Below are positions 61,880-64,000 of a stretch of DNA of 64,000 nt, one piece after another; the first letter of the stretch is position 1, and each line of letters starts with the position of its first letter. Origin of the DNA: Bacteroides sp. ET71 (lineage in GTDB: Bacteria > Bacteroidota > Bacteroidia > Bacteroidales > Bacteroidaceae). Where the stretch lies: the NCBI RefSeq assembly GCF_023336905.1, contig NZ_JAMBLS010000007.1, forward strand, positions 62,001-126,000, written 5' to 3'. The notes beneath the pieces are model-generated. The model did not search any database. It worked only from the letters and a program-made list of their open reading frames with translations, and had not been told where the DNA came from. A program made the position numbers and the translations under genes.

Positions 61880-62452
61880 ATGCTAAACATCGTAATTTTC
61901 GGTGCCCCCGGCTCAGGCAAGGGCACACAGAGTGAGAGAATCGTAGAAAAATATGGCATCAACCACATCTCTACCGGAGACGTGCTTCGTGCCGAAATCA
62001 AAGCCGGCACCGAACTGGGCAAGACGGCCAAGGGCTACATCGACCAGGGCCAACTGTTGCCGGACAACCTCATCGTGGACATCCTGGCCTCCACGCTCGA
62101 CGGGCTGAAGGACTCGAAGGGAGTCATCTTCGACGGATTTCCCCGCACCATCGCCCAGGCCGAAGCGCTGAAGAAAATGCTGGCCGAGCGGGGTCAGGAA
62201 GTAAGCATCATGCTGGACCTCGAAGTGCCCGAAGACGAACTGATGAACCGCCTCATCCTGCGCGGACAGCAGAGCGGACGCGCCGATGATAATGAGGAGA
62301 CCATCCGCAAGCGCCTCACCGTCTACCACAGCCAGACGGCTCCCCTCATCGACTGGTACAAGCAAGAGGGCAAGTATTGCCACATCAACGGACTGGGCGA
62401 ACTGGAACGCATCACGGGGGATATCTGCGAGGCGATTGATAAAGTGAAATAA
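61880..62452 (+). CDS. adk: adenylate kinase
   Basis: 190 residues, the short form without the zinc LID insertion. P-loop GAPGSGKGTQS at residues 8-18, NHISTGDVLRAEI, GFPRTIAQAEAL and the short LID region RGQQSGRADDNEETIRKRL. Balances ATP, ADP and AMP. Probably co-transcribed with hpt. Confidence 0.97.
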   Translation: MLNIVIFGAPGSGKGTQSERIVEKYGINHISTGDVLRAEIKAGTELGKTAKGYIDQGQLLPDNLIVDILASTLDGLKDSKGVIFDGFPRTIAQAEALKKMLAERGQEVSIMLDLEVPEDELMNRLILRGQQSGRADDNEETIRKRLTVYHSQTAPLIDWYKQEGKYCHINGLGELERITGDICEAIDKVK

Positions 62453-62470: not shown

Positions 62471-62536
62471 TGCACTATAAAAAGTGCAATTTCCCCATAA
62501 AAGTGCACTGAATTCAGTGCACTTTTCGTATCTTTG
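62471..62536 (+). promoter_or_regulatory. palindromic operator cluster and promoter of the HNH-type gene
   Basis: Two inverted repeats share the half-site AGTGCA: TGCACT-ATAAAA-AGTGCA (62471-62488) and a perfect 28-bp palindrome centred at 62512/62513 (AAAAGTGCACTGAA and its complement, 62499-62526). A -7 box TATCTTTG follows at 62529-62536, 22 bp before the ATG. The palindrome covers the -33 region, as a repressor site would. It could also act as the adk terminator, since TTTTC follows. Confidence 0.65.
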
Positions 62537-62557
62537 CGTATTATCCCATTAATAAAT

Positions 62558-63643
62558 ATGGTTCAAATAATCTGTGATACTTGGAAAGAGGCAAAAGGAT
62601 TTATCATGCAATATCCTGAACTTATCGGGCAAGTTATGCTTAAGTCCGAAGGAAGGAATATTATAGACATATATGACCCGCACCATACAAAGGATTGGAC
62701 TACCCGGATATCACAAGAAGAACTTATTCAGATAGTAAATAGCATAGAAAATGTATTAGAGCCTTCTATCAAGACAGGTTCCAATGATGTTTATAAAGAG
62801 CTATTATCTGATCAGAGATGGATAGATAAAAGCAATGAAATCAAGAGAAGAGATTTTTATACTTGTACAAGATGTTATAACAGCATTGTTCTAAATGATA
62901 TTATTCAATTGAAAGAATATCTACTAAAGGGAAATAATAGAACAGAATACGTTGAAAATATAAAAACTTTCAATACAATCTGTAGGAAATGGACTCCTAC
63001 TCCTTCTATCCTAAATAAGGATATACCAGAATACGAGTATGGTTTTAAGTACGAAAGTTCAAAAATTGTTCCCATCAAAGAACAGTGTATGAGAAAGATG
63101 AGATCATCCATTATATCTCATGGTTATATACCTTCTTTAAAACTCTACCTATATGAGTATAACTACTACATACATACCACTCCTTTTCTTATCAAGGAAA
63201 CAGTAAAAACAATAAAAGGAATTTTCTTTTCTAACCAACTACTATCAACAAACGAATCTATGTGGTACTGGGGGCCATACAATGATGAAGTAAAAGATTA
63301 CTATAATAAGAAAAGGACTTTATATTGGCAGTACAGTGAAAACGGAAACACGAATGATAAATTCGTATTATCACATTGTGTTAGTGAGGAAGGAGATTAT
63401 TATCATGGAGCATATAGAGGAATAGGTATTCTTTCTTACAACCAATACAGCATTATTTTTCCACTATATCAATTGAATACGGTTAATCTTGAAGTTCACC
63501 ATAAAGTGTACAAAAAGAAAAACGGAGAATATATAAAACCGTGGGAATATGAAAATGATGAATTGGAAACTCTTTGTTATAGCTGTCACCAACAAAAACA
63601 TATAGAAGAGAACATAAAGATTATTCATAATAACCATTTTTGA
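62558..63643 (+). CDS. HNH-endonuclease-like protein with a split zinc motif, AT-rich
   Basis: 361 residues. At residues 80-108, [20 protein letters not shown] then TCTRC match the first half of a common HNH domain (RW...K...I..RD...C..C). The second half occurs near the C-terminus: [11 protein letters not shown] with HH at 314-315, [13 protein letters not shown], and CYSCHQQKH (Cys 340, Cys 343, His 344, His 348). In normal members the halves are ~20 residues apart; here ~200 residues with many Tyr and Lys lie between. Both Cys pairs and the His pair are intact, so a folded, active nuclease is plausible. AT content is far above adk and obgE, suggesting transfer. It starts at the ATG at 62558, 22 bp after the -7 box, and ends 10 bp before obgE. 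Function unknown. Confidence 0.75.
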
Positions 63644-63653
63644 ATACAAGATT

Positions 63654-64000
63654 ATGCCAGAATCAAACTTCGTAGACTACGTGAAGATATACTGCCGCTC
63701 GGGCAAGGGCGGACGGGGTTCCACACACATGCACCGCGCCAAGTACATGCCCAAGGGCGGACCCGACGGCGGCGACGGCGGACGCGGCGGCAACATCATC
63801 CTGCGCGGCAACCGCAACTATTGGACGCTGCTGCACCTCAAGTACCAGCGACACGTGCTGGCCGGACACGGCGAAAGCGGTTCGAAAAACCGCAGCTTCG
63901 GCAAGGACGGAGAGGACAAGGTGATAGAAGTGCCCTGCGGAACCGTGGCCTACAACGCCGAGACGGGCGAATACCTGTGCGACGTCACCGAGCACGGGCA
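63654..64000 (+). CDS. obgE: GTPase ObgE/CgtA, 5' part
   Basis: Only the first 115 codons are inside the window. They give the glycine-rich Obg fold: [38 protein letters not shown] and [18 protein letters not shown], followed by [22 protein letters not shown]. ObgE is an essential ribosome-assembly GTPase. It begins 10 bp after the HNH-type gene and has no clear promoter of its own in that gap, so it would depend on readthrough from adk or on the HNH promoter. Confidence 0.95.

Follow-up and report, generated by a model that had tools for sequence, protein, structure and literature searches.

Between the genes for adenylate kinase (adk) and obgE in the gut bacterium Bacteroides sp. ET71 lies a gene whose predicted product carries the two parts of an HNH zinc motif far apart in one chain. 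Do these parts belong to a single motif and, if so, what is the stretch that separates them, and what might such a protein do in front of obgE? These questions were addressed in the window, by which we mean the whole stretch of 64,000 nucleotides of DNA that was analyzed, and among related genomes, loci and protein families. The features of the locus, all on the forward strand, are the following.

61880..62452, + strand: adk (adenylate kinase), the upstream neighbor; its translation begins MLNIVIFGAPGSGKGTQ
62499..62526, + strand: perfect 28-nt palindrome, AAAAGTGCACTGAA/TTCAGTGCACTTTT, terminator-like
62529..62536, + strand: TATCTTTG, a promoter-like -7 element that fits the Bacteroides consensus TAnnTTTG
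62558..63643, + strand: split-HNH protein gene, 361 aa, 31% GC
62558..62782, + strand: N-terminal region, residues 1-75; 64/75 identical in the orthologue from genome G855, 21-22% in relatives L006 and L028
62783..62893, + strand: N half of the HNH motif, residues 76-112 (Y79, L83, W88, Cys pair 103/106); N-half HMM 24.0 bits; weak match to phrog_144 positions 63-92; 33/37 identical in G855
62894..63415, + strand: variable insert, residues 113-286; 56/136 aligned residues shared with G855, dS 1.30
63416..63640, + strand: conserved segment and C half of the HNH motif (HH 314/315, PW, CxxCH 340-344), residues 287-361; C-half HMM 48.2 bits; PF01844; 64/75 identical in G855
63654..63998, + strand: start of obgE, which continues past the window end, 10 bases downstream of the split-HNH stop codon

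The two halves of the HNH motif

At 31% GC, the split-HNH gene is the lowest among the 56 frames of the window (52% overall), which bears out the remark in a sequence-only reading of this DNA that the gene is AT-rich compared to its neighbors. Its product contains CTRC at residues 103-106, with the preceding Trp at 88, followed by HH at 314-315 and CYSCH at 340-344. The same reading had placed the halves about 200 residues apart, and this held when HNH frames were gathered from 109 loci with a pattern demanding both halves, which yielded 68 distinct matches. The spacing between the Cys pair and HH was 8 to 12 residues in 58 of the 68 frames, 69 in one (L019) and 178 to 207 in nine, counts that do not represent population frequencies since the loci were picked by similarity and since members missing one half would escape the pattern. 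The window frame, at 207 residues, had the longest spacing of all.

Fifty-nine plain relatives supplied separate HMMs for the N half and the C half, with which 6182 frames were searched. With the N-half HMM, the window frame scored 24.0 bits and with the C-half HMM 48.2 bits, and the best frames without an HNH motif reached 8.8 and 7.4 bits, respectively. One frame classed as "other" (L095) had a C-half score of 57.3 bits and was read as a plain HNH frame truncated at the end of its contig. For L006 and L028, the N halves scored 10.4 and 11.0 bits, near background, and were 54% identical to the window protein over residues 76-112. It had been considered that the C-terminal motif might possess its own Cys pair and that the N-terminal match might be due to chance. 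Neither was found: CxxC occurs just twice in the chain, as CTRC (103-106) and CYSC (340-343), so that no separate Cys pair precedes HH in the C-terminal half, and the N half stood well above the 8.8-bit background.

Family profiles gave the same order of parts. The window C half aligned with positions 99-139 of phrog_144 and 217-262 of phrog_119, and the N half alone aligned weakly with positions 63-92 (E=0.015) and 182-210 (E=0.05), such that the halves sit 6 profile positions apart in both. The match to PF01844 (22.2 bits versus a cut-off of 21.4) covered residues 310-348 only, at profile positions 13-45, and the G855 orthologue had no Pfam match at E<=0.01. When the full split family was compared with the plain family by profile, the C half alone aligned. 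Among 19 positions invariant in nine plain relatives, mapped by eye, 17 were kept in the window protein; the two missing were the Q and R directly after the Trp. Overall, the comparisons support the view that the Cys-pair half and the HH/CxxCH half belong to one HNH motif, with an insertion between them.

Whether this motif cleaves DNA is a separate matter. What we take to be the position of the canonical HNH Asn is variable among the nine plain relatives, and N333 of the window protein is D in G855, L006 and L028; nuclease activity is therefore putative, and both observations would also suit a fold that does not cut DNA. DotN/IcmJ is an HNH-fold protein that is not known to have nuclease activity, and by analogy the fold might serve here as a zinc scaffold presenting a binding domain. 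Residues 71-142 do match IcmJ/DotN weakly (12.8 bits in NCBIfam against a cut-off of 100; E=0.41-0.47 in PDB with the family profile), but these scores are at chance level. Moreover, HH, PW and CxxCH are retained in all four A-type members of the family (described below), and the three best-matched PHROG families are all annotated as HNH endonucleases. We consider a protein devoid of nuclease activity unlikely, though by no means negligible.

Relatives that share the insertion point

When homologues were searched for and their insertion sites compared, as the sequence-only reading had suggested, twelve proteins were found to share one insertion point, which falls after the second zinc Cys and ahead of the HH strand: four A-type members, seven B-type members and L019. 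The A-type members are the window protein, L152 from G855, L006 from Phocaeicola faecium and L028 from G700; G855 belongs to the genus of the window and L028 to that of L006, and L030, also from P. faecium, is the same ORF as L006. The B-type members are L007, L008, L010, L011, L015, L016 and L153, with inserts of 178 to 198 residues in the six of seven that were measured. A CxxCxGxG-type zinc ribbon stands at the C terminus of six of the seven (all but L008), matching Pfam DnaJ_CXXCXGXG weakly (best E=0.011), and is absent from the window protein. The A-type and B-type inserts showed no profile similarity to each other (hhalign probability 0.2%). L019 (L148:8938-9672), from another family of the order, has a 69-residue insert at the same point and lies about 3 kb from obgE-adk; it may be an intermediate or an independent insertion, and its closeness to obgE in its own genome was treated as coincidence. 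A plain HNH domain was also seen at L013:1483-2823, fused to the N terminus of a protein read from its sequence as a Rep-type replication initiator.

The family is sparse in the genome sets searched, which overlap between the family, order and genus searches. Of 301 genomes of the family, 13 matched: the genome of the window, G182 (residues 70-347), G105 (residues 63-151) and ten with the C half only. In the order, 10 of 393 genomes matched, nine of them with the C half only and the tenth being the genome of the window. The B-type profile matched in 6 of the 301 family genomes, and 3 of 61 genomes matched in the genus of L006 and L028. Among 158 same-genus genomes, the A-type profile matched the genome of the window, G855 and G751, the last through the C half of the B-type protein L153; A-type genes thus number two in these 158 genomes, the window copy included. 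When contigs were scanned for two peptide patterns taken from the A-type core, P. faecium (L030) alone came up, and a viral scan gave no confirmed hit; the reach of both scans is limited to what the patterns match.

The insert itself resembled nothing recognizable. It had no PHROG match at E<=10, no Pfam match and no PDB match better than E=0.11, and no credible PDB hit to it emerged whether the query was the protein, the family profile or the A-type core. Searches of phages and plasmids with the window protein by tblastn, and of phages with the G855 and L153 proteins, returned nothing. The L010 protein matched 26 phage records, and the 20 matches listed cover the C half and zinc ribbon only (residues 213-304). 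Weak matches were obtained for the insert of L153 (L153:1582-2109, minus strand) with phrog_17122 (23 bits, E=1.6e-4), a phage family with no assigned function, and for that of L028 with phrog_19047 (E=6.6e-4); these are different families, and both matches may be due to chance.

The neighborhoods of the relatives were also inspected. L007 is the immediate neighbor of a type IIG restriction-modification pair, a type ISP restriction enzyme is encoded about 5 kb from L006 beyond some intervening genes, a Schlafen-type gene stands two genes upstream of L016, and L153 adjoins a CHAT-domain gene. Among the scanned neighbors of L010, L011, L015 and L008, there was no clear defense gene, an L010 neighbor being a weak PDC-S02 match. 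Direct contact with a restriction system was seen at one of nine split-HNH loci (L007), a count made from some neighbors only, four loci being scanned by PADLOC (ten neighbor proteins) and the rest by Pfam alone, with no base-rate control. These accessory or defense-like surroundings are suggestive only. In the window, the PADLOC models gave no family at E<=10 for the split-HNH protein. Across 52 window proteins, four families matched at E<=1e-10, namely, mad3 (two proteins) and QatD, mad2 and AriA (one each), which were taken as generic hits of housekeeping proteins. Three B-type loci from two genera, L010 (L144), L011 (L145) and L016 (L147), are found no more than about 4 kb from a gene named ftsZ on the basis of its sequence; this is possibly another variable slot beside a core gene.

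The adk-obgE slot and the G855 orthologue

The sequence-only reading had described adk and obgE as a usually close pair. An adk match at E<=1e-60 was found in 40 of 41 same-genus genomes searched; the adk loci of 30 of these 40 were read, and obgE was within reach in 25. The gap between the two genes in these 25 loci, the window included, was about 130 bp or less in 17, about 250 to 330 bp in 3 and 535 to 1297 bp in 5, the window being among the last. The pair is thus close in most loci, though not always. The obgE gene is essential, and the gap in front of it looks like a variable slot. In ten loci (L112, L114, L115, L116, L117, L118, L121, L122, L126 and L152), adk is followed by other genes before or instead of obgE within reach, obgE not being reached in L115, L116, L117, L122 and L126. 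The slot genes, with most names read from sequence, include an AAA_14/DUF4143 ATPase, a four-helix-bundle-like gene, AbiEii with DUF6922, and DNA-binding-like, transporter-like and sulfatase-like genes.

In three sister genomes with 95-96% adk identity, the slot is either empty (G730 and G758) or occupied by another gene, an AAA_14/DUF4143 gene in G743 (L112). The empty loci (L111 in G730 and L113 in G758) run from adk through the palindrome, TATCTTTG and a short leader to obgE in about 120 bp in total, and the palindrome recurs in L111, L112, L113 and G855 with one to three bases changed. TATCTTTG matches TAnnTTTG, the Bacteroides -7 promoter consensus given in PMC7366714. This element stands ahead of obgE in the empty sisters and ahead of the split-HNH gene in the window, where 21 bases separate it from the gene start (62536 to 62558) and the gene stops 10 bases short of obgE; there is no copy of TATCTTTG between the split-HNH gene and obgE. 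With this promoter-like element, found ahead of obgE in the sisters, on its upstream side and obgE so close behind, the gene is probably cotranscribed with obgE. This placement, together with membership in a small family, goes beyond what the sequence-only reading had described. It suggests that the slot would offer accessory genes a simple route to expression and retention via the leader of an essential gene.

The G855 orthologue occupies the same slot and likewise ends 10 bases ahead of obgE. It is immediately preceded by a retained copy of the terminator/promoter-like block, and a DUF6922 gene and an AbiEii gene lie between adk and this block. A toxin-antitoxin-type gene beside the orthologue raises the possibility that the protein is such a pair's toxin, or else an antibacterial nuclease for export, and that the insert determines its target or immunity partner. 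The N termini of L006 and L028 could be cited in the same sense, being strongly hydrophobic (19-residue means of 2.6 and 3.1) and followed by K/R-rich residues, a pattern that suggests membrane-anchored cytoplasmic proteins. The window protein lacks such an N terminus, however (its mean hydropathy over 19 residues peaks at 0.73), the window slot contains no AbiEii gene, and the window copy is flanked by adk and obgE with no partner gene. A toxin of either kind is therefore very unlikely.

Comparison of the window protein with its G855 orthologue separated the chain into constrained and divergent parts. Identity was 64/75 over residues 1-75, 33/37 over residues 76-112 and 53/60 over residues 287-346, versus 56/136 aligned residues in the insert (residues 113-286); that is, the N terminus and both HNH halves were 85 to 89% identical and the insert 41%. 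The flanks of the insert (161/187 amino acids identical) had a dS of 0.49 and a dN/dS of 0.15, and their dS lies near the values for obgE (0.41) and adk (0.43), which resembles vertical descent. The insert had a pS of 0.62, a dN of 0.57 and a dS of 1.30, the last a value that alignment error may inflate. For this reason, codon identity at identical residues was also counted. The same codon was used at 122/155 such residues in the flanks and 24/54 in the insert (p=5e-6); in runs of at least three identical residues, the counts were 116/147 and 9/24 (Fisher p=8e-5). The strongest result of the analysis, which comes from the one pair of window and G855, is that the scaffold appears constrained and the insert either replaced or hyperdiverged. 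The purifying selection on both halves in this pair argues that the halves act together. It also makes a decaying or chimeric pseudogene with a chance N-terminal match hardly conceivable: the gene is AT-rich and sporadic, as such a remnant might be, but the frame is open over 361 aa, the N half scores 24.0 bits against a background of 8.8, the flanks have a dN/dS of 0.15 and the same arrangement recurs in twelve proteins.

Other pairs were less extreme or more distant. Between L006 and L028, the N half, insert and C half were 76%, 71% and 91% identical, and between L010 and L011, they were 92%, 77% and 82% identical; in neither pair was the insert exceptional. In nine distant B-type pairs (from five of the seven proteins), the inserts were 11 to 31% identical, compared to 37 to 76% for the N half and 49 to 65% for the C half. 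Four distant A-type pairs gave 20 to 25% for the insert, 49 to 54% for the N half and 47 to 52% for the C half, and their N-terminal region (20 to 27%) was as variable as the insert.

The window and G855 grouped together, with support values of 0.97 and 94, and apart from G730, G758, G743 and others, when adk, hpt and obgE (obgE being partial or missing in some rows) were placed in an unrooted tree. The simplest history is thus one acquisition, followed by replacement or very fast divergence of the insert. A search of 301 family genomes for a donor of the G855 insert found none. The same data bear on whether the gene is a free-standing, selfish endonuclease of the homing type, whose insert would recognize a target near obgE in gene-free alleles, with cleavage followed by copying of the gene during repair. 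In favor of this are the HNH motif, a place in the obgE leader where neither a target duplication nor terminal repeats nor a transposase was seen, the empty sister alleles of G730 and G758, and the AT-rich and patchy character of the gene, with two A-type copies in 158 same-genus genomes, the window copy included. Nevertheless, the grouping of the window with G855 means that one acquisition suffices, relatives L006 and L028 occupy other sites so that members do not all lie at one conserved target, and a homing enzyme should conserve its target reader, whereas it is the insert that has changed fastest between these two genes in one slot. We regard homing as decidedly unlikely.

Proposed function and relation to known systems

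The explanation that we prefer, which falls a little short of an even chance, is that the gene encodes a solitary HNH-type nuclease, probably directed against phages or plasmids, with an exchangeable inserted domain that gates or aims it. The accessory setting of the family counts for it as well, with AbiEii and DUF6922 genes in the slot of G855, an AAA_14/DUF4143 gene in that of G743 and the type IIG pair beside L007. The HNH motif would act as the scaffold for an exchangeable recognition domain of about 140 to 200 residues, lodged in the loop that links the two Cys of the structural zinc to the HH strand. The Cys-pair half and the half with HH, PW and CxxCH would join into one HNH site, and the inserted domain would read a feature of foreign DNA or bind a phage component and so set when and where the nuclease acts. 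New insert alleles would displace old ones, presumably by recombination, with the scaffold kept. A lone nuclease must spare its own genome, and a fast-changing stretch inside a fixed motif would be expected to be a recognition or trigger domain. No partner methyltransferase adjoins the gene, the flanks being adk and obgE as had been noted from the start; an insert that decides when and where the nuclease acts would explain how the gene exists without one.

The behavior of the insert, divergent between orthologues at the same locus with the scaffold conserved, fits a sensing or targeting domain. The earlier interpretation of the gene as a nuclease with such a domain inserted therefore stands as regards one HNH motif, an insertion and its fit to sensing or targeting, whereas joint folding, cleavage and a defense role are what we infer. 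A wider and rather doubtful proposal is that the HNH motif may be a cassette holder, in which the loop between the Cys pair and HH is a port for unrelated recognition domains swapped by recombination; this would yield one-gene nucleases with a changing trigger or target, the scaffold being fixed at one slot and tied to the expression of an essential gene. If the halves do fold into one site, the active center would be assembled around the protein's own recognition domain, and binding could then control it directly. The comparison with G855 marks the fastest-evolving part of the protein and so poses a concrete question, namely, what the insert recognizes.

HNH nucleases and the exchange of recognition domains in restriction enzymes are already known. 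Judged by titles and abstract openings, no published HNH motif split by an exchangeable domain at this point was found, and the arrangement seen here appears undescribed in that literature. Plain HNH endonucleases (PHROG 144/119/589 and PF01844) have the same motif order (W, Cys pair, HHxxY, PW and LCxxCH), with the C half matching clearly and the N half alone weakly. They differ in having 8 to 12 residues between the Cys pair and HH (58/68), compared to 207 residues and an extra 75-residue N terminus in the window protein. The B-type split-HNH proteins share the insertion point and an insert that is less conserved than both HNH halves (nine distant pairs), but their insert has no profile similarity to that of the A type, and six of seven carry the zinc ribbon that the window protein lacks.

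Type I and type IIG restriction enzymes exchange their target recognition domains, and the window protein would work like them in combining a conserved catalytic scaffold with an exchanged specificity segment. Unlike them, it has no methyltransferase domain or adjacent partner, and its variable segment lies inside the nuclease motif. Solitary type IV or modification-dependent HNH restriction enzymes also exist; the window protein resembles these as a lone, accessory and patchy nuclease with no methyltransferase, although no known reader domain was recognized in its insert with Pfam or PHROG. In the RNA-guided endonuclease IscB, the HNH domain is itself the inserted domain. The HNH-half similarity to IscB is weak (NF040563, 13 bits in NCBIfam; PDB 9k2z, matched by the plain-family profile), but the window protein had no RuvC match in Pfam or NCBIfam and did not approach the 175-bit cut-off. 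The two arrangements are thus reversed: the HNH is the insert in IscB, whereas in the window protein it is the HNH that is interrupted by an insert.
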